Below, piece by piece: positions 5,853 through 57,900 of a stretch of 64,000 bases of DNA; the first letter of the stretch is position 1; every line of letters begins with the position of its first letter. Under the pieces are notes generated by a model, which saw only the letters and a program-made list of their open reading frames with translations, was not told the origin of the DNA and did not search any database. The stretch is from the NCBI GenBank assembly GCA_009746045.1, contig RPFO01001358.1, forward strand, positions 19,643 through 83,642, given 5' to 3'. The stretch comes from Mesostigma viride (Eukaryota; Streptophyta; Mesostigmatophyceae; Mesostigmatales; Mesostigmataceae). A program made the position numbers and the translations under genes.

Positions 5853-7403
5853 TCAATAGCAATGAAACACTACGGGGACTTCAGCAACACTCGAAATGGC
5901 AGCCTTGACTTCTGCATAATCCCACCCCTGCCGCAGACTCAGCGTGTGTAGGAACGTGCCTCGCTCTACCACCGCGCATACGCCCGCCACGGTCACCCTC
6001 TCACACGCGTGCACGCTCAGCGTGTCCAGATACCGGCAACCATCCCCCACCGCCTCGATGCCTCGATCCGTGATCGAGCATGCGTGCAAGGCTAGCTTAC
6101 GCAACCGCCGGCAACGCCCCGCCACCACTAGAACGCCACCATCCGTGACGCCAGGCCCAGAGACCTCGAGCGTCTCCAGACTGTGCCCACAGCTGTCGGC
6201 CAAAACCAGCAGGCTGATATCACTTAGCCCCGTGCGCAGTGCCCTCAAGTGCTTGAGCCGGGTCAGTATGCATGCCGTTAAGACAACGCTGTCGTCTGTA
6301 ACCAGCGGGCAGCCCTCGACGACCAGGGACTCGAGCAGGGGGAGCCCCACGCCGACGAACTGTATGCTGCCGTCAGTCACGCCGGCGCACCCCTCGAGGT
6401 CAAGCCGCTGGAGGGCCGGGCAGTTCTCTGCGACCGCGGTAATGCTGTCGTCGCTCACGGCTGCGCACCCGGCGAGGTTGAGGGAGAGGAGGAGCGGGCA
6501 TCGGGTCGCTATTTCCCTCACGCTGGCATCTGTCACGTCGCGGCAGTGTTTTACCTTCAGGTGGCGCAAGTCGGGGTTCTCTTGGGCGAGGATCTTCATG
6601 CTGGTGTCTGTCACGCCGGCGCATCCCCGCAGGTTCAAGTGCCGGAGCTGCTTGCACTGGGCGGCGATCTTGCTGATGCTGGCGTCTGTGACACCGGGGC
6701 ATTCCTTGAGGGACAGCTTCTCTAACAGGGGGCAGTTGTCGGCGAGCAGGGCTATGCTGGTGTCCGAGATGCCCCTGGTGACATCTGCCAGCATGCCCGA
6801 GCTGGCGCTGAAGCAGCCCATGACGAGGGGGACGCTGTTTCCGGCCATAAGGGAGGTGAGCCGAGGGCAGTGGAGTGCCAGCGAAGTGATTCCGATATCT
6901 GACACACGGGTGCCTTGGATATTGATGTGTGTTAAATCGTGGCATGCTGATGCGATCGCCTGGATGCTGACGTCGTCGACGCTGGCACAGCGCCCGAGGT
7001 CGAGGGAGCGCAGGCGTGTGCACGTGGCAGCCATCCGGAGCAAGGTGTCGGATACCGTGGGATTTGTGGGGAGAGCAAAGTCGGACCTGGCTGACTCGTG
7101 TGACTCCAGCTCAGGGGGAAATTCGAATGCTAGCAGGTTGGGGCATTTGCCGACCAACCACCGCGCGGTGTCCCAGAAGCGACCGTCCCGCAGGCCGTCC
7201 ATGTCGCACCTCAGGAATTGCTTATGCGAGAGGAATGAGTCGTCGACGCAGGAACGGAACGCGGAGCCTAGACGCCGAAGACGAATGCGATCTATAACCG
7301 GCAAATCCATTACAACGAGGGCGCCTAAGCCAGGTGTGCCCAGGATGGTTTGCAAGGTGGGCGGAGACGAGGATGGCTCCATTTGAAAACGGCGTATGCT
7401 CAA
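5853..7403 (-). CDS. Leucine-rich-repeat protein of the cysteine-containing (AMN1/F-box-LRR) type
   Basis: This is an intact, intronless 516-residue frame. From about residue 115 to 500 it consists of roughly a dozen ~26-residue repeats of the cysteine-containing LRR class, for example CPLLEKLSLKECPGVTD, with a recurring pattern of (V/I)(T/S)DxS(I/V)xxIAxxCPxLxxLxLxGC. In eukaryotes such repeats are usual in substrate-binding subunits of SCF ubiquitin ligases and in AMN1-like regulators. The N-terminal 60 residues (DLPVIDRIRLRRLGSAFRSC) resemble a weak F-box-like helical segment, but I cannot confirm an F-box. Two Met codons (residues 1 and 8) are possible starts; the first is chosen only because it is longest. 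Codon use is GC-rich, like the CTPA exons and unlike the surrounding repeats. The partner and substrate are unknown. Confidence 0.8.
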   Translation of the reverse strand: MSIRRFQMEPSSSPPTLQTILGTPGLGALVVMDLPVIDRIRLRRLGSAFRSCVDDSFLSHKQFLRCDMDGLRDGRFWDTARWLVGKCPNLLAFEFPPELESHESARSDFALPTNPTVSDTLLRMAATCTRLRSLDLGRCASVDDVSIQAIASACHDLTHINIQGTRVSDIGITSLALHCPRLTSLMAGNSVPLVMGCFSASSGMLADVTRGISDTSIALLADNCPLLEKLSLKECPGVTDASISKIAAQCKQLRHLNLRGCAGVTDTSMKILAQENPDLRHLKVKHCRDVTDASVREIATRCPLLLSLNLAGCAAVSDDSITAVAENCPALQRLDLEGCAGVTDGSIQFVGVGLPLLESLVVEGCPLVTDDSVVLTACILTRLKHLRALRTGLSDISLLVLADSCGHSLETLEVSGPGVTDGGVLVVAGRCRRLRKLALHACSITDRGIEAVGDGCRYLDTLSVHACERVTVAGVCAVVERGTFLHTLSLRQGWDYAEVKAAISSVAEVPVVFHCY

Positions 7404-7676
7404 TTGCCAGTTGGGCCAAGTCGAGAAATGTACATCATTCCGAAACCTGGCGGCCGTCTAAGAAAAGGACATTTTCATCATATTAACAGGGTTCCAGAAG
7501 GCAGCAAGTCAAGCTGTAGATGACTGCATGTCTCATTGTTGTCAAATAATCTATAAAAGGGTATCTGGCGCAAATGCCCCAAGAACTGTGAAAGGAACCA
7601 CCTGTAGCCACGTTAGAACTTGACACGGTCGGATCCTTTTCACTCGATCAGGGAATCGCATTTCTCCTCTTTTTCA
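7404..7676. other. Short intergenic stretch between the LRR gene and a MITE
   Basis: About 270 bp without a recognisable gene. It should contain the promoter of the minus-strand LRR gene, but no convincing TATA box is seen on that strand. A TATAAAAG at 7552-7559 is on the plus strand, facing the MITE, and no coding region follows it. Confidence 0.4.
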
Positions 7677-27895: not shown

Positions 27896-27963
27896 GGAGA
27901 AATGTCCGAGTGGAATGCTATGTATGGGGTAACTTTCCCAAGGGTTCGAATCCCTCTTTCTCC
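27896..27963 (+). tRNA. tRNA-like sequence (serine/leucine-like ends), lacking a normal anticodon arm
   Basis: GGAGAAA at 27896-27902 pairs perfectly with TTTCTCC at 27957-27963. A D-arm-like TCCGAGTGGA and a perfect T-loop sequence GGGTTCGAATCCC are correctly ordered, and the discriminator is A27964. Acceptor, D and T sequences resemble plastid tRNA-Ser. The total is only 68 nt, while tRNA-Ser needs about 87, and the interior offers no 5-bp anticodon stem with a proper loop. It is most likely a deleted tRNA pseudogene, possibly a nuclear piece of plastid DNA. Confidence 0.4.
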
Positions 27964-28071
27964 ATTAGAGTTTTGTTTAGCTTCTATTCTCGTCTACACA
28001 TAATTCACACGAAGTACGCTTGCAAATACTTTATTACTATTTTGTTTGATATACTACACTAATATTATAAT

Positions 28072-31672: not shown

Positions 31673-33791
31673 ATCCAATCATTGCTTTATCCCATTGGAG
31701 TGAGGGGCTGCCAGAAGAACCAGATTTATTACATATAAGTGATAAGCCCACGTCAAGGCCGTAGCCAATCTGAGACTCTAGACTAACTAGGCCACCCGAC
31801 AGGTGGCTAGGACATCACATTACCAGGGCCAACTCACCTGGGCCAGTCATGAGGACCTGGACTTGTAATACCCTCAAGCAGCGAGGGAGGGCGGGTGGGA
31901 GCTGCAAAGAGGCCTAATTGTGGCAGTACCACAACCCTAAGTAGTCGGACCGCCCTGGGGTGGCGCGTGCCAGCCCACTGACCAAAAGGCCAGTGGCACC
32001 GTGACGCGCGCCAGCCCACTGACCAAAAAGGCCAGTGGTGCCGTGGCGCGCGCCAGCCCACTGACCAACAGGCCAGTGGCGCCGCGCCACCCCCGGTCCA
32101 CACTACCCCCCCCTCACTTCTAGTCGGACTGACTACTGCGGCCGCCCCTCCCCCTTTGAGTATGCCGCAAGTCATAGATAATACGAGCGTGAGCTCACAA
32201 AATCCAATCATTGCTTTATCCCATTGGAGTGAGGGGCTGCCAGAAGAACCAGATTTATTACATATAAGTGATAAGCCCACGTCAAGGCCGTAGCCAATCT
32301 GAGACTCTAGACTAACTAGGCCACCCGACAGGTGGCTAGGACATCACATTACCAGGGCCAACTCACCTGGGCCAGTCATGAGGACCTGGACTTGTAATAC
32401 CCCACACCCCCAACCTGGCCCTCGGCCGCAGGCTGTCGCGTGACCCCGCCTCCCGTTGCCCCCCGTGTCCCCTGCCGCTACCAGCGGCTCCATCAGCCTA
32501 GCCAGGCGGCAATACAACGGGGGGAGCTAATAGTCTTCCTGAGCAGGATGATTCATCCCCAGGCCCAGCACACATCCCCTCACCCCAAAAGGTGCAGCTC
32601 GTCGAGGGTAAAGACACGCCGGATAAAACACAACCCCACGGGCCCGCCACACAGGTGGGTCCTTACACGTCCCCCCCTCGTGGGGGGCGGGGAAAACGCA
32701 AAGGCAGAGCGGAGCCCGCAGCCTTACCGCGGGCGAAGCGGAGCCTTCGCGTTTTCCACGCACCCCGCGAGGGGAAAAATTTTTTGGAAACCTGCCAACC
32801 CGTGAGGGGTTTTCCACGCACCCTCCCCCGCACCCAAGCTGCGTCCTTGGATTCCCCCTCCGCCTGTACGCCATGCCCCGTCATCCCGTTTTTATGTTTT
32901 TGCACCATGGAAGCAGACCAACGATGTAACATAGCAGTAGCCGGGTGCCCGTTAAGGCACCGGACCCTACCCTCTCGTCTGCAGCACGAGGCTCCTCCTC
33001 CTCCATGCGTTGGGTAAAATTCTGCCCTTATATACTGCATGGACACTTCCCCCAACAATTCGTCACCTCGCCATCCCCCGCACCTCCCCATCTGGCTCAC
33101 GCCGGCCGGAGGGAATACGCCAGGCGAACTGAATTTCAGGTTTCGGCAGCTTGGCCCACGCAATACTGTTTTACAGTGATTCCTGCACCATCTCACGATT
33201 TTTACCACCCGCCTGCACTATTCCACAGCTCCCGTCGACTGTGGCCTGGCCTGCCCAAATCATCTCGTGGCAGGAGATGATGTTCCATAGTGTCGGTCGG
33301 CGCCCAAATAATGCAGTGGAAATCGAGTCCTGTACTTCGAAAAACAGGGGCCCCGCCACCTTCCCCCTCGGCGGCCAAAAATTTAAATCACTCTGGGCCC
33401 TCCCGAATAAACGGGAAGGCTGGTAGCCATCGACTAATTTGGGCTTGTGCCGCCATGGCCAGCCGCCACCGAATTTCGATGGTCGCGAGAGCTGCAAAGA
33501 GGCCTAATTGTGGCAGTACCACAACCCTAAGTAGTCGGACCGCCCTGGGGTGGCGCGTGCCAGCCCACTGACCAAAAGGCCAGTGGCACCGTGACGCGCG
33601 CCAGCCCACTGACCAAAAAGGCCAGTGGTGCCGTGGCGCGCGCCAGCCCACTGACCAACAGGCCAGTGGCGCCGCGCCACCCCCGGTCCACACTACCCCC
33701 CCCTCACTTCTAGTCGGACTGACTACTGCGGCCGCCCCTCCCCCTTTGAGTATGCCGCAAGTCATAGATAATACGAGCGTGAGCTCACAAA
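31673..33791. mobile_element. 2,119-bp composite insert in the satellite (two related units in tandem)
   Basis: Satellite sequence stops at 31672 and resumes exactly in phase at 33792. The uninterrupted version is present at 46440/46441, so the insert boundaries are firm apart from a 2-base GT ambiguity, and no target duplication is seen. Inside, unit 1 (31673-32201) and unit 2 (32202-33791) share the same start (ATCCAATCATTGC, ~195 bp) and the same end (~304 bp ending GAGCTCACAAA). Unit 2 has an extra ~1.09 kb in the middle (32401-33487). The shared end contains three ~38-bp repeats with CCACTGACC/GGCCAGTGG hairpins. No coding region is recognised. The superfamily is unknown. Confidence 0.7.
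32640..32830. repeat. Inverted repeat inside the composite insert
   Basis: GGAAAACGC near 32691 pairs with GCGTTTTCC near 32749, with further GC-rich complementarity between them, giving a strong potential hairpin in the part unique to unit 2. Confidence 0.5.
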
Positions 33792-39700: not shown

Positions 39701-42700
39701 TTTTGTGTGTAAGTGTGTGTGCAGCAGCCCCTTGCGTGCGCGGTGTATGTACGTGTGTGTGCAGCCGCCCCGTGGTTGCGCGGTGGATGTACATGTGAGT
39801 GGAGCCGGTCCTTGCGTGCGCGGTGTATGTACGTGTGTGTGCAGCCGCCCCTTGCGTGCGCGGTGTAGGTACGTATGTGTGCAGCCGCCCCTTGCGTGCG
39901 CGGTGTATGTACGTGTGTGTGCAGCCGCTCCAAGCGTGCGCGGTGTGTGTACATGTGAGTGCAGCTGCCCCAAGCGTGCGCGGTGTGTGTACATGTGTGT
40001 GCAGTTGCCCCTTGCGTGCGCGGTGGATGTACGTGTGTGTGCATGCCGGCAATTGCGTGCATGGTGTGTGTACGTGTGTGTGCAGCCGCCCCTTGCGTGC
40101 GCGGTGTGTGTACATGTGAGTGCCGTCGCCCCAAGCGTGCATTTTGTGTGTAAGTGTGTGTGCAGCCGCCCCTTGCGTGCGCGGTGTAGGTACGTGTGTG
40201 TGCAGCAGCCCCAAGCGTGCGCGGTGTATGTACGTGTGTGTGCAGCCGCCCCAAGCGTGCGCGGTGTGTGTACATGTGAGTGCAGCTGCCCCAAGCGTGC
40301 GCGGTGTGTGTACATGTGTGTGCAGTTGCCCCTTGCGTGCGCGGTGGATGTACGTGTGTGTGCATGCCGGCAATTGCGTGCATGGTGTGTGTACGTGTGT
40401 GTGCAGCCGCCCCTTGCGTGCGCGGTGTGTGTACGTGTGTGTGCAGCCGCCCCTTGCGTGCATGGTGTATGTCCATGTGAGTGCCGTTGCCCCTTGCGTG
40501 CGCGGTGGATGTACGTGTGTGTGCAGCCACCCCTTTCGTGCGCGGTGTATGTACATGTGAGTGCCGTCGCCCCAAGCGTGCATTTTGTGTGTAAGTGTGT
40601 GTGCAGCCGCCCCTTGCGTGCGCGGTGTAGGTACGTGTGTGTGCAGCCGCCCCAAGCGTGCGCGGTGTATGTACGTGTGTGTGCAGCCGCCCCAAGCGTG
40701 CGCGGTGTGTGTACATGTGAGTGCAGCTGCCCCAAGCGTGCGCGGTGTGTGTACATGTGTGTGCAGTTGCCCCTTGCGTGCGCGGTGGATGTACGTGTGT
40801 GTGCATGCCGGCAATTGCGTGCATGGTGTGTGTACGTGTGTGTGCAGCCGCCCCTTGCGTGCGCGGTGTGTGTACGTGTGTGTGCAGCCGCCCCTTGCGT
40901 GCATGGTGTATGTCCATGTGAGTGCCGTTGCCCCTTGCGTGCGCGGTGTATGTACGTGTGTGTGCAGCCGTCCCTTAATTGCGTGCGCGGTGGATGTACA
41001 TGTGCGGGCAGTTGCCCCTTGCGTGCGCGGTGTATGTACGTGTGTGTGCAGCCGTCCCTTGCGTGCGCGGTGTATGTACGTGTGTGTGCAGCCGCCCCTT
41101 GCGTGCATGGTGAGTGTAAGTGTGTGTGCAGCAGCCCCTTGCGTGCGCAGTGTATGTACGTGTGTGTGCAGCCGCCCCTTGCGTGCGCGGTGTGTGTATA
41201 CTGTGTGTGCATGCCGGCCCTTGCGTGCATGGTGTGTGTACGTGTGTGTGCAGCCGCCCAAGAGTATGTACATGTGAGTGCCGTCGCCCCTAATTGCGTG
41301 CATTGTGTGTGTAAGTGTGTGTGCAGCAGCCCCTTGCGTGCGCGGTGTATGTACGTGTGTGTGCAGCCGGCAATTGCGTGCATGGTGTGTGTACGTGTGT
41401 GTGCAGCCGCCCCTTGCGTGCGCGGTGTGTGTACGTGTGTGTGCAGCCGCCCCTTGCGTGCATGGTGTATGTCCATGTGAGTGCCGTTGCCCCTTGCGTG
41501 CGCGGTGTATGTACGTGTGTGTGCAGCCGTCCCTTAATTGCGTGCGCGGTGGATGTACATGTGCGGGCAGTTGCCCCTTGCGTGCGCGGTGTATGTACGT
41601 GTGTGTGCAGCCGTCCCTTGCGTGCGCGGTGTATGTACGTGTGTGTGCAGCCGCCCCAAGCGTGCGCGGTGTGTGTACATGTGAGTGCAGCTGCCCCAAG
41701 CGTGCGCGGTGTGTGTACATGTGTGTGCAGTTGCCCCTTGCGTGCGCGGTGGATGTACGTGTGTGTGCATGCCGGCAATTGCGTGCATGGTGTGTGTACG
41801 TGTGTGTGCAGCCGCCCCTTGCGTGCGCGGTGTGTGTACGTGTGTGTGCACTCGCCCCTTGCGTGCGCGGTGTGTGTACAGGTGTGTGCAGCCGCCCCTT
41901 GCGTGCATGGTGTATGTACATGTGTGTGCAGCCGCCCCTTGCGTGCGCGGTGGATGTACATGTGTGTGCAGCCGAACCTTGCGTGCATGGTGTGTGTACC
42001 TGTGCGTGAAGTCGCTCCTTGCGTGCATGGTGTGTGTACGTGTGTGTGCAGCCACCCCTTTCGTGCGCGGTGTATGTACATGTGAGTGCCGTCGCCCCAA
42101 GCGTGCATTTTGTGTGTAAGTGTGTGTGCAGCAGCCCCTTGCGTGCGCGGTGTATGTACGTGTGTGTGCAGCCGCCCCGTGGTTGCGCGGTGGATGTACA
42201 TGTGAGTGGAGCCGGTCCTTGCGTGCGCGGTGTATTTACGTGTGTGTGCAGCCGCCCCAAGCGTGCGCGGTGTGTGTACGTGTGTGTGCAGTTGCCCCTT
42301 GCGTGCGCGGTGTGTGTACATGTGTGTGCAGTTGCCCCTTGCGTGCGCGGTGGATGTACGTGTGTGTGCAGCCGCCCCTTGCGTGCGCGGTGTATTTACG
42401 TGTGTGTGCAGCCGCCCCAAGCGTGCGCGGTGTGTGTACGTGTGTGTGCAGTTGCCCCTTGCGTGCGCGGTGTGTGTACATGTGTGTGCAGTTGCCCCTT
42501 GCGTGCGCGGTGTATGTACATGTGTGTGCAGTTGCCCCTTGCGTGCGCGGTGTATGTACGTGTGTGTGCAGCCGCCCCTTGCGTGCGCGGTGTAGGTACG
42601 TGTGTGTGCAGCCGCCCCAAGCGTGCGCGGTGTGTGTACATGTGTGTGCAGTTGCCCCTTGCGTGCGCGGTGTGTGTACGTGTGTGTGCAGCCGCCCCTT

Positions 42701-44706: not shown

Positions 44707-47700
44707 TTGCGTGCGCGGTGTGTGTACATGTGTGTGCAGTTGCCCCTTGCGTGCGCGGTGTATGTACGTGTGTGTGCAGCCGCCCTTGCGTGCGCGGTGG
44801 ATGTACGTGTGTGTGCAGCCGGCCCTTGCGTGCGGTGTGTGTACGTGTGTGTGCAGCCGCCCTTGCGTGCGCGGTGGATGTACATGTGTGTGCAGTCGCC
44901 CCTTGCGTGCGCGGTGTGTGTACGTGTGTGTGCAGCCGCCCCTTGCGTGCGCGGTGTAGTACGTATGTGTGCAGCCGCCCCTTGCGTGCGCGGTGTATGT
45001 ACGTGTGTGTGCAGCCGCCCAAGCGTGCGCGGTGTGTGTACATGTGAGTGCAGCTGCCCCAAGCGTGCGCGGTGTGTGTACATGTGTGTGCAGTTGCCCC
45101 TTGCGTGCGCGGTGGATGTACGTGTGTGTGCATGCCGCAATTGCGTGCATGGTGTGTGTACGTGTGTGTGCAGCCGCCCCTTGCGTGCGCGGTGTGTGTA
45201 CATGTGAGTGCCGTCGCCCCAAGCGTGCATTTTGTGTGTAAGTGTGTGTGCAGCCGCCCCTTGCGTGCGCGGTGTAGGTACGTGTGTGTGCAGCCGCCCC
45301 AAGCGTGCGCGGTGTATGTACGTGTGTGTGCAGCCGCCCCAAGCGTGCGCGGTGTGTGTACATGTGAGTGCAGCTGCCCCAAGCGTGCGCGGTGTGTGTA
45401 CATGTGTGTGCAGTTGCCCCTTGCGTGCGCGGTGGATGTACGTGTGTGTGCATGCCGGCAATTGCGTGCATGGTGTGTGTACGTGTGTGTGCAGCCGCCC
45501 CTTGCGTGCGCGGTGTAGGTACGTGTGTGTGCAGCCGCCCCAAGCGTGCGCGGTGTATGTACGTGTGTGTGCAGTTGCCCCTTGCGTGCGCGGTGTAGGT
45601 ACGTGTGTGTGCAGTTGCCCCTTGCGTGCGCGGTGTGTGTACATGTGTGTGCAGTTGCCCCTTGCGTGCGCGGTGGATGTACGTGTGTGTGCAGCCGCCC
45701 CTTGCGTGCGCGGTGTAGGTACGTGTGTGTGCAGCCGCCCCAAGCGTGCGCGGTGTGTGTACGTGTGTGTGCAGTTGCCCCTTGCGTGCGCGGTGTGTGT
45801 ACATGTGTGTGCAGTTGCCCCTTGCGTGCGCGGTGTATGTACGTGTGTGTGCAGCCGCCCTTGCGTGCGCGGTGGATGTACGTGTGTGTGCAGCCGCCCT
45901 TGCGTGCGGTGTGTGTACGTGTGTGTGCAGCCGCCCCTTGCGTGCGCGGTGGATGTACATGTGTGTGCAGTCGCCCCTTGCGTGCGCGGTGTGTGTACGT
46001 GTGTGTGCAGCCGCCCCTTGCGTGCGCGGTGGATGTACGTGTGTGTGCAGTTGCCCCTTGCGTGCGCGGTGGATGTACGTGTGTGTGCAGCCGCCCCTTG
46101 CGTGCGCGGTGTGTGTACATGTGTGTGCAGCTGCCCAAGCGTGCGCGGTGTGTGTACATGTGTGTGCAGTTGCCCCTTGCGTGCGCGGTGGATGTACGTG
46201 TGTGTGCAGCCGCCCCTTGCGTGCGCGGTGTGTACGTGTGTGTGCAGCCGCCCCTTGCGTGCGCGGGGATGTACGTGTGTGTGCAGCCGGCCCTTGCGTG
46301 CATGGTGTGTGTACGTGTGTGTGCAGCCGCCCCTTGCGTGCGCGGTGTAGGTACGTGTGTGTGCAGCCGCCCCAAGCGTGCGCGGTGTAGGTACGTGTGT
46401 GTGCAGTTGCCCCTTGCGTGCGCGGTGTAGGTACATGTGTGTGCAGTTGCCCCTTGCGTGCGCGGTGGATGTACGTGTGTGTGCAGCCGCCCCTTGCGTG
46501 CGCGGTGTGTGTACATGTGAGTGCAGCTGCCCCAAGCGTGCGCGGTGTGTGTACATGTGTGTGCAGTTGCCCCTTGCGTGCGCGGTGGATGTACGTGTGT
46601 GTGCAGCCGCCCCTTGCGTGCGCGGTGTAGGTACGTGTGTGTGCAGCCGCCCCAAGCGTGCGCGGGGGATGTACGTGTGTGTGCAGCCGGCCCTTGCGTG
46701 CATGGTGTGTGTACGTGTGTGTGCAGCCGCCCCTTGCGTGCGCGGTGTAGGTACGTGTGTGTGCAGCCGCCCCAAGCGTGCGCGGTGTAGGTACGTGTGT
46801 GTGCAGTTGCCCCTTGCGTGCGCGGTGTAGGTACATGTGTGTGCAGTTGCCCCTTGCGTGCGCGGTGTATGTACATGTGTGTGCAGTTGCCCCTTGCGTG
46901 CGCGGTGTATGTACGTGTGTGTGCAGCCGCCCCTTGCGTGCGCGGTGTAGGTACGTGTGTGTGCAGCCGCCCCAAGCGTGCGCGGTGTGTGTACATGTGT
47001 GTGCAGTTGCCCCTTGCGTGCGCGGTGTGTGTACGTGTGTGTGCAGCCGCCCCTTGCGTGCGCGGTGGATGTACGTGTGTGTGCAGTTGCCCCTTGCGTG
47101 CGCGGTGGATGTACGTGTGTGTGCAGCCGGCCCTTGCGTGCATGGTGTGTGTACGTGTGTGTGCAGCCGCCCCTTGCGTGCGCGGTGTAGGTACGTGTGT
47201 GTGCAGCCGCCCCAAGCGTGCGCGGTGTAGGTACGTGTGTGTGCAGTTGCCCCTTGCGTGCGCGGTGTAGGTACATGTGTGTGCAGTTGCCCCTTGCGTG
47301 CGCGGTGTATGTACATGTGTGTGCAGTTGCCCCTTGCGTGCGCGGTGTATGTACGTGTGTGTGCAGCCGCCCCTTGCGTGCGCGGTGTGTGTACGTGTGT
47401 GTGCAGCCGCCCCTTGCGTGCGCGGTGTATGTACGTGTGTGTGCAGCTGCCCCAAGCGTGCGCGGTGTGTGTACATGTGTGTGCAGTTGCCCCTTGCGTG
47501 CGCGGTGGACGTACGTGTGTGTGCATGCCGGCAATTGCGTGCATGGTGTGTGTACGTGTGTGTGCAGCCGCCCCTTGCGTGCGCGGTGTGTGTACGTGTG
47601 TGTGCATGCCGGCAATTGCGTGCATGGTGTGTGTACGTGTGTGTGCAGCCGGCCCTTGCGTGCGCGGTGTGTGTACATGTGAGTGCAGCTGCCCCAAGCG

Positions 47701-50700: not shown

Positions 50701-53686
50701 GCGTGCGCGGTGTGTGTACATGTGAGTGCAGCTGCCCCAAGCGTGCGCGGTGTGTGTACATGTGTGTGCAGTTGCCCCTTGCGTGCGCGGTGGATGTACG
50801 TGTGTGTGCATGCCGGCAATTGCGTGCATGGTGTGTGTACGTGTGTGTGCAGCCGCCCCTTGCGTGCGCGGTGTGTGTACGTGTGTGTGCACTCGCCCCT
50901 TGCGTGCGCGGTGTGTGTACAGGTGTGTGCAGCCGCCCCTTGCGTGCATGGTGTATGTACATGTGTGTGCAGCCGCCCCTTGCGTGCGCGGTGGATGTAC
51001 ATGTGTGTGCAGCCGAACCTTGCGTGCATGGTGTGTGTACCTGTGCGTGAAGTCGCTCCTTGCGTGCATGGTGTGTGTACGTGTGTGTGCAGCCACCCCT
51101 TTCGTGCGCGGTGTATGTACATGTGAGTGCCGTCGCCCCAAGCGTGCATTTTGTGTGTAAGTGTGTGTGCAGCAGCCCCTTGCGTGCGCGGTGTATGTAC
51201 GTGTGTGTGCAGCCGCCCCGTGGTTGCGCGGTGGATGTACATGTGAGTGGAGCCGGTCCTTGCGTGCGCGGTGTATTTACGTGTGTGTGCAGCCGCCCCA
51301 AGCGTGCGCGGTGTGTGTACGTGTGTGTGCAGTTGCCCCTTGCGTGCGCGGTGTGTGTACATGTGTGTGCAGTTGCCCCTTGCGTGCGCGGTGGATGTAC
51401 GTGTGTGTGCAGCCGCCCCTTGCGTGCGCGGTGTATTTACGTGTGTGTGCAGCCGCCCCAAGCGTGCGCGGTGTGTGTACGTGTGTGTGCAGTTGCCCCT
51501 TGCGTGCGCGGTGTGTGTACATGTGTGTGCAGTTGCCCCTTGCGTGCGCGGTGTATGTACATGTGTGTGCAGTTGCCCCTTGCGTGCGCGGTGTATGTAC
51601 GTGTGTGTGCAGCCGCCCCTTGCGTGCGCGGTGTAGGTACGTGTGTGTGCAGCCGCCCCAAGCGTGCGCGGTGTGTGTACATGTGTGTGCAGTTGCCCCT
51701 TGCGTGCGCGGTGTGTGTACGTGTGTGTGCAGCCGCCCCTTGCGTGCGCGGTGGATGTACGTGTGTGTGCAGTTGCCCCTTGCGTGCGCGGTGGATGTAC
51801 GTGTGTGTGCAGCCGCCCCTTGCGTGCGCGGTGTGTGTACATGTGAGTGCAGCTGCCCCAAGCGTGCGCGGTGTGTGTACATGTGTGTGCAGTTGCCCCT
51901 TGCGTGCGCGGTGGATGTACGTGTGTGTGCAGCCGCCCCTTGCGTGCGCGGTGTATGTACGTGCGTGTGCAGCCGCCCCTTGCGTGCGCGGTGTATGTAC
52001 ATGTGTGTGCATCCTTGTCCTTGCGTGCGCGGTGTATGTACATGTGTTTGCACTCGCCCCTTGCGTGCGCGGTGGATGTACATGTGTGTGCAGCCGCCCC
52101 TTGCGTGCATGGTTTATGTACATGTGTGTGCAGTCGCCGGCCCCGTGCGTGCGCAGTGGATGTACGTGTGTGTGCAGCCGCCCCGTGCGTGCATGGTGTG
52201 TGTACGTGTGTGTGCAGCAGCCCCTTGCGTGCGCGGTGTATGTACGTTTCTGTGCATGCCGGCCCTTGCGTGCATGGTGTATGTACATGTGCTTGCACTG
52301 GCCCCTTGCGTGCGCGGTGTATGTACGTGTGTGTGCAGCCCCCCCTTGCGTGCGCGGTGTATGTACGTGTGTGCGCACTCGCCCCTTGCGTGCGCGGTGT
52401 ATGTACGTGTGTGTGCATGCCGGCAATTGCGTGCATGGTGTGTGTACGTGTGTGTGCAGCCGCCCCTTGCGTGCGCGGTGTGTGTACGTGTGTGTGCACT
52501 CGCCCCTTGCGTGCGCGGTGGATGTACATGTGTGTGCAGCCGCCCCTTGCGTGCATGGTGTATGTCCATGTGTGGGCAGTTGCCCCTTGCGTGCGCGGCG
52601 TATGTACATGTTTTTGCACTCGCCCCTTGCGTGCATGGTGTATGTATGTGTGTGTGCAGCCGCCCCTTGCGTGCGCGGTGGATGTACGTGTGTGTGCAGC
52701 CACCCCTTTCGTGCGCGGTGTATGTACATGTGAGTGCCGTCGCCCCAAGCGTGCATTTTGTGTGTAAGTGTGTGTGCAGCAGCCCCTTGCGTGCGCGGTG
52801 TATGTACGTGTGTGTGCAGCCGCCCCGTGGTTGCGCGGTGGATGTACATGTGAGTGGAGCCGGTCCTTGCGTGCGCGGTGTATGTACGTGTGTGTGCAGC
52901 CGCCCCTTGCGTGCGCGGTGTAGGTACGTATGTGTGCAGCCGCCCCTTGCGTGCGCGGTGTATGTACGTGTGTGTGCAGCCGCTCCAAGCGTGCGCGGTG
53001 TGTGTACATGTGAGTGCAGCTGCCCCAAGCGTGCGCGGTGTGTGTACATGTGTGTGCAGTTGCCCCTTGCGTGCGCGGTGGATGTACGTGTGTGTGCATG
53101 CCGGCAATTGCGTGCATGGTGTGTGTACGTGTGTGTGCAGCCGCCCCTTGCGTGCGCGGTGTGTGTACATGTGAGTGCCGTCGCCCCAAGCGTGCATTTT
53201 GTGTGTAAGTGTGTGTGCAGCCGCCCCTTGCGTGCGCGGTGTAGGTACGTGTGTGTGCAGCAGCCCCAAGCGTGCGCGGTGTATGTACGTGTGTGTGCAG
53301 CCGCCCCAAGCGTGCGCGGTGTGTGTACATGTGAGTGCAGCTGCCCCAAGCGTGCGCGGTGTGTGTACATGTGTGTGCAGTTGCCCCTTGCGTGCGCGGT
53401 GGATGTACGTGTGTGTGCATGCCGGCAATTGCGTGCATGGTGTGTGTACGTGTGTGTGCAGCCGCCCCTTGCGTGCGCGGTGTGTGTACGTGTGTGTGCA
53501 GCCGCCCCTTGCGTGCATGGTGTATGTCCATGTGAGTGCCGTTGCCCCTTGCGTGCGCGGTGGATGTACGTGTGTGTGCAGCCACCCCTTTCGTGCGCGG
53601 TGTATGTACATGTGAGTGCCGTCGCCCCAAGCGTGCATTTTGTGTGTAAGTGTGTGTGCAGCCGCCCCTTGCGTGCGCGGTGTAGG
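33792..53686. repeat. 40-bp satellite array, second segment (about 497 units)
   Basis: Same unit as 28235-31672. The array has nested higher-order duplication: 37.67-40.4 kb recurs at 41.69-44.4 kb (offset 4,014), and a much larger repeat is described separately. The array is continuous apart from small unit-length indels, which cluster at 44.75-46.3 kb. It ends at the foldback element, where GTAGG (53682-53686) is the left target duplication. Confidence 0.95.
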
Positions 53687-53894
53687 AGTTAGGTTAAACA
53701 GAGCCGGAACCTTTTTGCCGCCTGAGGCAAATCGGGCCGGAACACTATTTTGCCCGGAATAACCACTTCCGAGCACCCAAGTTAATTCGGCCGAATTAAC
53801 TTGGGTGCTCGGAAGTGGTTATTCCGGGCAAAATAGTGTTCCGGCCCGATTTGCCTCAGGCGGCAAAAAGGTTCCGGCACTGTTTAACGTAACT
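53687..53894. repeat. Palindrome P1 of the foldback element
   Basis: Centre at 53790/53791. Arms of 104 bp carry the GGGCCGGAAC variant on both sides and five-T/five-A runs on both sides. Only two mismatches near the outer end separate the arms. Confidence 0.95.
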
Positions 53895-54026
53895 AAAACC
53901 TGTGCACCTTGGAGGTCAGGGGTTCGAATCCTTACTGAGGCAGCTCCGGCGCATTTAGTGGTGCGTGCTCAGCGGCCTAGGCGGATGTCTCGGGCTCTTC
54001 GTCCCCCCTCCACGAGGCCAGGTTTT
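53895..54026 (+). other. Module S1 with tRNA-like B box (identical to S3, inverted in S2)
   Basis: Contains GGAGGTC, then GGTTCGAATCC (a perfect RNA polymerase III B box), then CTGAGGCA, resembling the variable loop, T arm and 3' acceptor end of a tRNA. About 45 bp downstream lies CGGCCTAGGCGG, a 10-of-12 match to the A-box consensus, but in the reverse of normal gene order. A GCCTCAG able to pair with CTGAGGC occurs in the preceding palindrome arm. A tRNA-derived origin is likely; a functional (for example permuted) tRNA is only a possibility because no anticodon stem is evident. Confidence 0.45.
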
Positions 54027-54232
54027 AGTTACGTTAAATAGTGACGGAACCTTTTGCCGCCTGAGGCAAATCGGTCCGTAACACTATTTTGCCCGGAATA
54101 ACCACTTCCGAGCACCCAAGTTAATTCGGCCGAATTAACTTGGGTGCTCGGAAGTGGTTATTCCGGGCAAAATAGTGTTACGGACCGATTTGCCTCAGGC
54201 GGCAAAAGGTTCCGTCACTATTTAACGTAACT
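54027..54232. repeat. Palindrome P2 of the foldback element
   Basis: Centre at 54129/54130, arms 103 bp. Both arms carry the GGTCCGTAAC variant rather than the GGGCCGGAAC of P1 and P4. Together with S1 and S2 it forms a continuous palindrome of about 470 bp. Confidence 0.95.
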
Positions 54233-54364
54233 AAAACCTGGCCTCGTGGAGGGGGGACGAAGAGCCCGAGACATCCGCCTAGGCCGCTGAGCACGCACCA
54301 CTAAATGCGCCGGAGCTGCCTCAGTAAGGATTCGAACCCCTGACCTCCAAGGTGCACAGGTTTT

Positions 54365-54571
54365 AGTTACGTTAAATAGTGACCGGAACCTTTTGCCGCC
54401 TGAGGCAAATCGGTCCGTAACACTATTTTGCCCGGAATAACCACTTCCGGGCACCCAAGTTAATTCGGCCGAATTAACTTGGGTGCTCGGAAGTGGTTAT
54501 TCCGGGCAAAATAGTGTTACGGACCGATTTGCCTCAGGCGGCAAAAGGTTCCGTCACTATTTAACGTAACT
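54365..54571. repeat. Palindrome P3 of the foldback element
   Basis: Centre at 54468/54469. Carries the same GGTCCGTAAC variant as P2 on both arms; the left arm has one extra C (GACCGG) and one substitution (CCGGGC for CCGAGC). Confidence 0.95.
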
Positions 54572-54703
54572 AAAACCTGTGCACCTTGGAGGTCAGGGGT
54601 TCGAATCCTTACTGAGGCAGCTCCGGCGCATTTAGTGGTGCGTGCTCAGCGGCCTAGGCGGATGTCTCGGGCTCTTCGTCCCCCCTCCACGAGGCCAGGT
54701 TTT

Positions 54704-54909
54704 AGTTACGTTAAATAGTGACGGAACCTTTTGCCGCCTGAGGCAAATCGGGCCGGAACACTATTTTGCCCGGAATAACCACTTCCGAGCACCCAAGTTA
54801 ATTCGGCCGAATTAACTTGGGTGCTCGGAAGTGGTTATTCCGGGCAAAATAGTGTTCCGGCCCGATTTGCCTCAGGCGGCAAAAGGTTCCGTCACTATTT
54901 AACGTAACT
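54704..54909. repeat. Palindrome P4 of the foldback element
   Basis: Centre at 54806/54807, arms 103 bp, both of the GGGCCGGAAC type like P1. Its outer end abuts the right GTAGG target duplication. Confidence 0.95.
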
Positions 54910-57900
54910 GTAGGTACGTGTGTGTGCAGCCGCCCCAAGCGTGCGCGGTGTATGTACGTGTGTGTGCAGCCGCCCCAAGCGTGCGCGGTGTGTGTACATG
55001 TGAGTGCAGCTGCCCCAAGCGTGCGCGGTGTGTGTACATGTGTGTGCAGTTGCCCCTTGCGTGCGCGGTGGATGTACGTGTGTGTGCATGCCGGCAATTG
55101 CGTGCATGGTGTGTGTACGTGTGTGTGCAGCCGCCCCTTGCGTGCGCGGTGTGTGTACGTGTGTGTGCAGCCGCCCCTTGCGTGCATGGTGTATGTCCAT
55201 GTGAGTGCCGTTGCCCCTTGCGTGCGCGGTGTATGTACGTGTGTGTGCAGCCGTCCCTTAATTGCGTGCGCGGTGGATGTACATGTGCGGGCAGTTGCCC
55301 CTTGCGTGCGCGGTGTATGTACGTGTGTGTGCAGCCGTCCCTTGCGTGCGCGGTGTATGTACGTGTGTGTGCAGCCGCCCCTTGCGTGCATGGTGAGTGT
55401 AAGTGTGTGTGCAGCAGCCCCTTGCGTGCGCAGTGTATGTACGTGTGTGTGCAGCCGCCCCTTGCGTGCGCGGTGTGTGTATACTGTGTGTGCATGCCGG
55501 CCCTTGCGTGCATGGTGTGTGTACGTGTGTGTGCAGCCGCCCAAGAGTATGTACATGTGAGTGCCGTCGCCCCTAATTGCGTGCATTGTGTGTGTAAGTG
55601 TGTGTGCAGCAGCCCCTTGCGTGCGCGGTGTATGTACGTGTGTGTGCAGCCGGCAATTGCGTGCATGGTGTGTGTACGTGTGTGTGCAGCCGCCCCTTGC
55701 GTGCGCGGTGTGTGTACGTGTGTGTGCAGCCGCCCCTTGCGTGCATGGTGTATGTCCATGTGAGTGCCGTTGCCCCTTGCGTGCGCGGTGTATGTACGTG
55801 TGTGTGCAGCCGTCCCTTAATTGCGTGCGCGGTGGATGTACATGTGCGGGCAGTTGCCCCTTGCGTGCGCGGTGTATGTACGTGTGTGTGCAGCCGTCCC
55901 TTGCGTGCGCGGTGTATGTACGTGTGTGTGCAGCCGCCCCAAGCGTGCGCGGTGTGTGTACATGTGAGTGCAGCTGCCCCAAGCGTGCGCGGTGTGTGTA
56001 CATGTGTGTGCAGTTGCCCCTTGCGTGCGCGGTGGATGTACGTGTGTGTGCATGCCGGCAATTGCGTGCATGGTGTGTGTACGTGTGTGTGCAGCCGCCC
56101 CTTGCGTGCGCGGTGTGTGTACGTGTGTGTGCACTCGCCCCTTGCGTGCGCGGTGTGTGTACAGGTGTGTGCAGCCGCCCCTTGCGTGCATGGTGTATGT
56201 ACATGTGTGTGCAGCCGCCCCTTGCGTGCGCGGTGGATGTACATGTGTGTGCAGCCGAACCTTGCGTGCATGGTGTGTGTACCTGTGCGTGAAGTCGCTC
56301 CTTGCGTGCATGGTGTGTGTACGTGTGTGTGCAGCCACCCCTTTCGTGCGCGGTGTATGTACATGTGAGTGCCGTCGCCCCAAGCGTGCATTTTGTGTGT
56401 AAGTGTGTGTGCAGCAGCCCCTTGCGTGCGCGGTGTATGTACGTGTGTGTGCAGCCGCCCCGTGGTTGCGCGGTGGATGTACATGTGAGTGGAGCCGGTC
56501 CTTGCGTGCGCGGTGTATTTACGTGTGTGTGCAGCCGCCCCAAGCGTGCGCGGTGTGTGTACGTGTGTGTGCAGTTGCCCCTTGCGTGCGCGGTGTGTGT
56601 ACATGTGTGTGCAGTTGCCCCTTGCGTGCGCGGTGGATGTACGTGTGTGTGCAGCCGCCCCTTGCGTGCGCGGTGTATTTACGTGTGTGTGCAGCCGCCC
56701 CAAGCGTGCGCGGTGTGTGTACGTGTGTGTGCAGTTGCCCCTTGCGTGCGCGGTGTGTGTACATGTGTGTGCAGTTGCCCCTTGCGTGCGCGGTGTATGT
56801 ACATGTGTGTGCAGTTGCCCCTTGCGTGCGCGGTGTATGTACGTGTGTGTGCAGCCGCCCCTTGCGTGCGCGGTGTAGGTACGTGTGTGTGCAGCCGCCC
56901 CAAGCGTGCGCGGTGTGTGTACATGTGTGTGCAGTTGCCCCTTGCGTGCGCGGTGTGTGTACGTGTGTGTGCAGCCGCCCCTTGCGTGCGCGGTGGATGT
57001 ACGTGTGTGTGCAGTTGCCCCTTGCGTGCGCGGTGGATGTACGTGTGTGTGCAGCCGCCCCTTGCGTGCGCGGTGTGTGTACATGTGAGTGCAGCTGCCC
57101 CAAGCGTGCGCGGTGTGTGTACATGTGTGTGCAGTTGCCCCTTGCGTGCGCGGTGGATGTACGTGTGTGTGCAGCCGCCCCTTGCGTGCGCGGTGTATGT
57201 ACGTGCGTGTGCAGCCGCCCCTTGCGTGCGCGGTGTATGTACATGTGTGTGCATCCTTGTCCTTGCGTGCGCGGTGTATGTACATGTGTTTGCACTCGCC
57301 CCTTGCGTGCGCGGTGGATGTACATGTGTGTGCAGCCGCCCCTTGCGTGCATGGTTTATGTACATGTGTGTGCAGTCGCCGGCCCCGTGCGTGCGCAGTG
57401 GATGTACGTGTGTGTGCAGCCGCCCCGTGCGTGCATGGTGTGTGTACGTGTGTGTGCAGCAGCCCCTTGCGTGCGCGGTGTATGTACGTTTCTGTGCATG
57501 CCGGCCCTTGCGTGCATGGTGTATGTACATGTGCTTGCACTGGCCCCTTGCGTGCGCGGTGTATGTACGTGTGTGTGCAGCCCCCCTTGCGTGCGCGGTG
57601 TATGTACGTGTGTGCGCACTCGCCCCTTGCGTGCGCGGTGTATGTACGTGTGTGTGCATGCCGGCAATTGCGTGCATGGTGTGTGTACGTGTGTGTGCAG
57701 CCGCCCCTTGCGTGCGCGGTGTGTGTACGTGTGTGTGCACTCGCCCCTTGCGTGCGCGGTGGATGTACATGTGTGTGCAGCCGCCCCTTGCGTGCATGGT
57801 GTATGTCCATGTGTGGGCAGTTGCCCCTTGCGTGCGCGGCGTATGTACATGTTTTTGCACTCGCCCCTTGCGTGCATGGTGTATGTATGTGTGTGTGCAG

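Follow-up and report, generated by a model that had tools for sequence, protein, structure and literature searches.

Arrays of long palindromes alternating with a 132-bp cassette: a mobile, probably non-autonomous element family of unusual architecture in Mesostigma viride

The window, a stretch of 64,000 nt of Mesostigma viride DNA, contains a 1,223-bp element (53687-54909) that belongs to a mobile family and is not an assembly artefact. Its layout, P1-S1-P2-S2'-P3-S3-P4, alternates long palindromes (P) with a short cassette (S), and other members of the family carry between none and seven S. We regard it as probable, with considerable reserve, that P and a tRNA-like S together make up a DNA element without coding capacity and without autonomy, in which the outermost P arms would be the transposon ends.

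The preliminary description of this DNA had reported four palindromes of about 206 bp, three identical 132-bp modules flipping +, -, + and flanking duplications of GTAGG, and coordinates and identities bear out all three claims. The palindromes are 208, 206, 207 and 206 bp long, and the duplications occupy 53682-53686 on the left and 54910-54914 on the right (both + strand). P1 (53687-53894) forms the left end of the element and its left arm contains two asymmetric changes; P2 (54027-54232) is a perfect palindrome with S right ends on both sides (RR). P3 (54365-54571) lies between S left ends (LL), a junction type found in all 13 complete dimers of the family, and again has two asymmetric changes in its left arm, one among the changes of P1 and P3 being an inserted base. 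P4 (54704-54909), the right end of the element, is also a perfect palindrome. The cassettes S1 (53895-54026, + strand, with a perfect B box at 53921 and a right end of TTTT), S2 (54233-54364, - strand) and S3 (54572-54703, + strand, B box at 54598) are 132 bp apiece and mutually identical. The predicted DNA fold of the whole element is -764.9 kcal/mol.

A search of the same genome for the P arm and S returned many copies, solo palindromes among them. In the 440-Mb genome (2,243 contigs), a 25-base pattern from the end of the P arm, with two mismatches allowed, gave 3,588 matches (1,789 + 1,799) and none for the reversed control, and a 36-base pattern from the core of S, with three mismatches allowed, gave 905 (454 + 451; control 0). 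Halving the arm ends yields about 1,790 P which, with 905 S, would correspond to roughly 890 elements and some 0.1% of the genome, both figures being estimated and not directly counted. Exact patterns for the P centre and for S had no matches in viral contigs, the exact P-centre pattern had none in prokaryote-genome contigs, and the whole element had no match in plasmid and phage collections.

Individual copies were studied in 48 stretches and two further loci (L020 and L024), with P arms and S annotated by BLAST. L039-L061 were taken from the list of P ends (exact matches, in contig order), L062-L078 and L086 by rank of similarity to the window, and L079-L085, L020 and L024 by rank of similarity to S1, part of the sample thus being chosen by window similarity. 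A perfect 5-bp duplication flanked 45 of the 47 insertions with both ends (a count that includes both L072 and L073, which are probable alleles, and omits copies lacking an end), with 43 different sequences; the two exceptions were a truncated copy (L060) and a copy inside satellite (L074). Separate insertions with 5-bp duplications were found for P alone (206 bp), P-S-P (544 bp), P-s-P-S-P (882 bp) and longer arrays, and in all these forms the element typically ends in AGTTACG..CGTAACT. Inverted terminal sequences and a target duplication of fixed length are therefore both present, as in MITE-like DNA elements. The preliminary description would have been undermined by an arrangement seen only at assembly joins; arrays of this kind instead occur elsewhere, several of them inside contigs of 9 to 14 Mb, with 5-bp duplications of their own.

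Several copies were located in other satellites (L056, L063, L054, L049, L057 and L078), with units of ~210 bp at L056 and units of ~150 bp with internal inverted repeats at L063, a placement in which insertion preference is confounded with the sampling of repeat-rich contigs. The flanks of L066, L067, L069 and L086 gave the impression of giant-virus-type coding DNA; if this is true, these copies would be insertions into endogenous viral DNA.

The number of S units in 35 complete copies (a set that leaves out incomplete copies, one of L072/L073, and L079/L080) was zero in two, one in four, two in 13, three in 13, four in two and six in one; L068, an array of seven S with one damaged P, falls outside this set. 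The layout of the window element is thus a minority form, and P-s-P-S-P, a near-palindrome of 882 bp, accounts for 13 of the 35. We write s-P-S (sS) where the left ends of both S face the central P. All 13 complete dimers had this form, for which random orientation predicts one quarter; complete trimers comprised nine of sSS type and four alternating ones (window copy included), both complete tetramers were sSsS, and the hexamer was sSsSsS. Among the first 100 S places listed there were 19 sS pairs, three same-direction pairs and no Ss pairs, and neighbours within 600 bp formed 29 sS, 11 same-direction and two Ss junctions, these orientation counts coming from the first 100 listed S and the fetched copies, which are overlapping sets. 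A diverged type of S, 86-87% identical and with a 6-base deletion after the B box, was observed in L051, L067, L070 and L079. It adjoins ordinary S inside the same arrays, which is evidence of mixing between lineages.

Under the reading that we prefer, the outer ends of P (AGTTACGTTAAATAG...) would act as transposon ends, and a transposase or integrase supplied by another element would recognise no P arms but the two outermost; the P-S units between them could then travel along in whatever number, and array length would set no limit to mobility. The founder would have been the palindromic dimer P-s-P-S-P, and exchange or template switching between P copies, for instance during gap repair after excision, may reshuffle the cassettes. 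A single step of exchange at P would convert the sS founder into solo P, P-S-P (s or S), sSS or ssS trimers and sSsS tetramers, and alternating trimers such as the window copy would require a second step. The products expected from this proposed reconstruction match the observed copy spectrum; the two steps needed for the four alternating trimers are counted against it. The arms of one P would be kept alike by copying across the palindrome axis.

The age of the window insertion was assessed from its flanks. As claimed before, the sister satellite block has a single, uninterrupted GTAGG at 40627-40631 (+ strand), and the offset between the two blocks changes across the element, from 13,055 on its left to 14,283 on its right. 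On the left side of the insertion point the sister block and the flank of the window copy agree over 3,026 bp with zero mismatches, and on the right side they do so over 4,080 bp, which supports the further claim that the insertion postdates the satellite duplication, unless satellite homogenisation erased older flank differences. Within the window copy, nine sites differ between its own units, where the flanks allow at most 0.5 expected differences (P 4e-9). Because these nine differences stand against none in 7,106 flanking bp, the analysis shows that the trimer in the window came to this site as a complete array whose units already differed, assuming no post-insertion homogenisation of the satellite flanks, a process that could weaken the dating.

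Uninterrupted counterparts were found for five arrays, namely those of the window, L062, L064, L061 and L068. The site of L062 (4 S) is empty in all 40 scored copies of a repeat, the best three matches having 1 mismatch in 523 bp as judged from bit scores; that of L064 (3 S) is empty in at least 36 listed places, the best with 1 mismatch in 320 bp (also from bit scores); that of L061 (2 S) is empty at four places with 0 mismatches in 320 bp; and the 150 + 150 bp flanks of L068 (7 S) are contiguous and exact in L070. These last four arrays do not date array building, because their flanks are too short to exclude later change; pooled without the window they contain 19 variable sites, not above the bound of 25, so that the proof of arrival as an array comes from the window copy. 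For 18 of the 23 variable arm sites in the five arrays (two of the 23, both in L064, probably reflect one arm trimmed by the aligner), the state is present in at least four arms of other elements, indicating that these are inherited family variants and not new mutations.

The exact B box was present in 122 of 122 full-length S copies, 121 of which end in CAGGTTTT, and an A-box-like 12-mer (TGCCTCAGGCGG or TGCCTCAGTGGG) occurs in 318 of 322 P arms. In the window, a candidate TGCCTCAGGCGG was noted by eye in the right arm of P1 (53852-53863, + strand), upstream of the B box of S1. By comparison with the general consensus of the two boxes, these 12-mers resemble an A box and the S motif is a B box. 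The Rfam tRNA model scored 16.7 bits over the right arm of P3 and S3 (54531-54619, + strand) and 16.2 bits in L043, against a gathering score of 29. The intact B box is itself weak evidence of selection, because all of S is highly conserved (mean 11-mer 0.93). From these motifs, a tRNA origin and Pol III transcription of the P-S unit are plausible. Each unit may be a Pol III gene, with the A box in the P arm, the B box in S and the TTTT that ends S; given the symmetry of P, the central P of a dimer, which has the left end of an S on either side, would be a candidate divergent Pol III promoter. With default settings, ARAGORN called no tRNA either for the window or for the element, and a tRNA gene was rejected as a candidate, the low-threshold hits being scattered and of different types. 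Matches to Rfam microRNA models and to Dictyoglomi-1 were all under their gathering scores, and were taken as long hairpins.

Pol III boxes of this kind also occur in TRIM-type miniature LTR retrotransposons with a Pol III promoter (TRIMp3). Read in this way, P would be an LTR of unusual, palindromic form and S would be the internal region; a P on its own would count as a solo LTR, and the longer forms as LTR-sharing arrays. We hold this explanation to be unlikely, although a good number of observations agree with it: the 5-bp duplications, solo P with a duplication, the tRNA-like boxes, a monomer and a dimer below 1 kb, about two P per S, and a TGG-starting stretch (TGGCCTCGTGGAGG) seen by eye 6 nt inside the right end of S. 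The two P of complete monomers are identical in three of four cases, and the fourth has an identical arm pair. In the published accounts of these elements (PMC10886601; PMC7215508), Helenus makes 5-bp duplications in both fungi and plants, its solo LTRs are likewise flanked by duplications of 5 bp, and it has a primer-binding site, a purine tract and LTRs; Cassandra forms arrays of at least 12 LTR units. Reverse transcription should, however, leave the outermost repeats identical at insertion, and P1 and P4 of the window copy differ at no fewer than 3 of about 103 positions in every arm pair, with flanks identical over 7,106 bases; likewise, in 31 multimers the outer-outer distance (1.77) is not below the outer-central distance (1.51). 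The ends of the element are AG..CT and not the TG..CA expected of TRIMs, the purine tract beside P is absent, by eye, at both ends of S, and the complete dimers are inverted in 13 of 13 cases, where LTR arrays would be expected to run in one direction.

Slightly less probable still is an origin of the arrays in place, with insertions of P or of the dimer growing, shrinking and mixing where they stand, through unequal exchange, replication slippage or gene conversion at the palindromes, and arrays rarely travelling. The P of L065 (6 S) are identical throughout, as expansion in place would give, truncated P exist, and the flanks of four of the five arrays with empty sites are compatible with such growth. 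The window trimer speaks against it, with its nine variable sites and no flank change in 7,106 bp, as does the constancy of array length elsewhere: L072 and L073, the probable alleles, have an identical three-S array, and contig C2106 contains a repeated block with two insertion sites, at both of which the complete copies have two S units. A further search for alleles through the flanks of L084, L052 and L077 found none among 40 scored candidates, which repeats filled. In addition, 18 of the 19 mosaic multimers with strongly different arms kept an intact duplication, which speaks against crossover between different loci as the route to them and for joining before integration or for repair from other copies, and gene conversion from other loci stays compatible with it.

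The arms of the palindromes have changed together. Per ~103 bases, the mean number of differences was 0.82 between arms of one P, 1.43 between arms across one S, 1.64 between other arms of the same element and 2.80 between different elements, so that the two arms of one P resemble each other, on average, more than do the arms on either side of one S. Among 168 P, the variant T51G was found on both arms in 42 and on one arm in 11, against 13 and 68 expected if the arms were independent. Over all sites, 213 non-consensus states were common to both arms and 134 were one-armed, and among states private to one P, 16 were one-armed versus two two-armed. Perfect symmetry was seen in 42 of 64 outermost P and in 20 of 53 central ones (within-element permutation P 0.004). 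Some central P switch state at the axis while the arms flanking one S agree (e.g., L067 and L077). These data fit exchange at P together with copying across the axis, and self-copying hairpin ends would also give them. One P copy (L090:300-320) breaks off at its axis of symmetry, where an S end adjoins it; such a join might result from cutting at the tip of a hairpin or cruciform.

Hairpin ends are the basis of a third alternative, which we consider doubtful and just behind growth in place, namely that the arrays are concatemers of hairpin-ended DNA. The family would move as extrachromosomal DNA whose terminal half-palindromes are copied round, a process that may resemble rolling-hairpin replication; units from different copies would be joined at the palindromes, with full P at the junctions and S alternating, and arrays of any length would then be integrated with 5-bp duplications. 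If true, this would be a mobile array whose movement does not depend on cassette number and whose core is a divergent Pol III promoter. The covarying arms, the greater symmetry of the outermost P (as expected of self-copying ends), the location of some within-P state changes between the arms, and the arrival of the window trimer pre-built all agree with this model, and so does the fact that S alternates in every complete dimer, in both complete tetramers and in the hexamer. Strict alternation nevertheless fails in the trimers, where same-direction copies number nine against four alternating, and same-direction junctions make up 11 of 42, when simple hairpin copying yields none. Finally, an assembly artefact or chance structure is very improbable: palindromes are hard to assemble, but nothing else was found in its favour, and it is contradicted by the perfect duplications of 45 of 47 insertions, several of which lie within contigs 9 to 14 Mb long, and by the zero matches of the pattern controls for P and S.

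For the favoured reading, a non-autonomous element with P arms as its ends, a transposase partner was sought with two end-pattern searches (shared ends, different interior), which returned six places (reversed control 1) and five places (control 0). No partner was found in the four places inspected, two of which were P-S copies and two lay within damaged copies (L082 and L059). With no transposase in hand from these searches, no superfamily is assignable to the element. A lone palindrome at L040:1521-1756 resembles P over its outer 83 bp (80-82% identical) but has a different centre, and ACATG stands on both sides of it. It was also tried as a lead to a partner element and rejected, its arm pattern being restricted to the two arms of L040 itself.

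The satellite that hosts the window copy (28238-63970) consists of about 890 units of 40 bp and contains long internal duplications, with offsets such as 14,283, 12,649 and 13,055. A second insertion in it (31673-33791) has the order B-A-B-internal-A, comprising a pair of 201-bp repeats (31673-31873 and 32202-32402) and a pair of 303-bp repeats (31899-32201 and 33489-33791), each pair 100% identical. Its empty site is contiguous at about 46391-46490 and shows no target duplication; the insertion looks like a DIRS/Ngaro-type element that is non-autonomous and has split direct repeats. A stretch at about 27898-27966, where the satellite begins, appears tRNA-Ser-like by eye and contains a perfect B box (27943), and ARAGORN called no tRNA there; it belongs to a repeat, because the left flank of L076 equals window 27917-28066 at 100%. 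Elsewhere in the window, a frame at 5853-7457 (- strand) encodes a leucine-rich-repeat protein matching plant F-box-associated Pfam models, and nearby frames contain what look by eye like pieces of a LINE and of a CtpA-type plastid protease, with no Pfam match; such content would suit a photosynthetic eukaryote.

Long perfect palindromes are normally unstable, and here hundreds of them are kept in one genome, with their arms changing together. Since the flanks allow an insertion to be dated, and insertions have variants of their own, questions on palindromes and arrays become testable in this family: what keeps the two arms of a palindrome the same, whether a transposon can move an array of variable length as a single unit, and how arrays come to be mixed while their target duplications remain intact. 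There would also be a consequence for annotation, as a repeat finder would probably assign different copies of the family to MITE, solo LTR, SINE and satellite.

The literature covered, with subscription papers and Repbase outside its scope, yielded no account of a eukaryotic element in which palindromes and a cassette alternate. The preliminary description's statement that no family with a P-S-P-S'-P-S-P layout had been described therefore stands for the layout itself, which is only one rung of a ladder from 0 to 7 S. Its term foldback element suits the folding behaviour of the DNA, but not membership in the Foldback-type families compared (Galileo, Tetris and Tm1), which have duplications of 7-10 bp instead of 5 bp, and no transposase was found by the end-pattern searches. 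Galileo, Tetris and Foldback4 have in common with the present family non-coding short forms, long fold-back ends and a modular, variable structure. Galileo of Drosophila has 7-bp duplications, solo-end copies like those seen here, and 12 chimeric copies without matching duplications (PMC3573991), unlike the mosaic multimers of the present family, which keep theirs in 18 of 19 cases. Tetris, also of Drosophila, shares a varying number of units, of ~220 bp in its case, but its duplications are of about 8-10 bp and its repeats are tandem units inside long inverted ends (PMC4079207), whereas here full palindromes separate a tRNA-like cassette. Foldback4, again of Drosophila, combines palindromic ends with varying internal modules (PMC2955051). 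The Mutator/Foldback element Tm1 is similar in its MITE-like members and composite inverted ends of variable length, and it has 9-bp duplications and a predicted Mutator-type transposase (PMC3169594). Its duplications thus differ from the 5-bp ones of the present family.

Two further systems are similar in arrangement. Parvovirus-type DNA has palindromic ends around a body, head-to-head junctions at the palindrome, and concatemers; the present family differs in having no coding body and in its 5-bp duplications and same-direction arrays. The REP palindromes of BIMEs are much smaller than P, and BIMEs are bacterial. What these share with our arrays is regular spacing and alternating orientation (PMC2817692).

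The closest rival class is that of the Pol III-promoted TRIMs. Helenus, Ajax and Cassandra are likewise small and non-coding, with a small-RNA-like Pol III promoter (PMC10886601; PMC7215508), and TRIMp3 elements show 5-bp duplications in several groups, solo repeats and repeat-sharing arrays. The present family is unlike Helenus in that its repeats are palindromes, its ends are AG..CT and no purine tract adjoins them, and it is unlike TRIMs in that the outer P of the window copy, a young insertion, differ from each other, although the four monomers remain compatible. Because the TRIM features fail on ends, purine tract and outer identity, and the Foldback-type duplications compared are of 7 bp or more, we file the element under no named family; it represents an unusual architecture of a non-autonomous mobile element, with a mechanism that is partly established.
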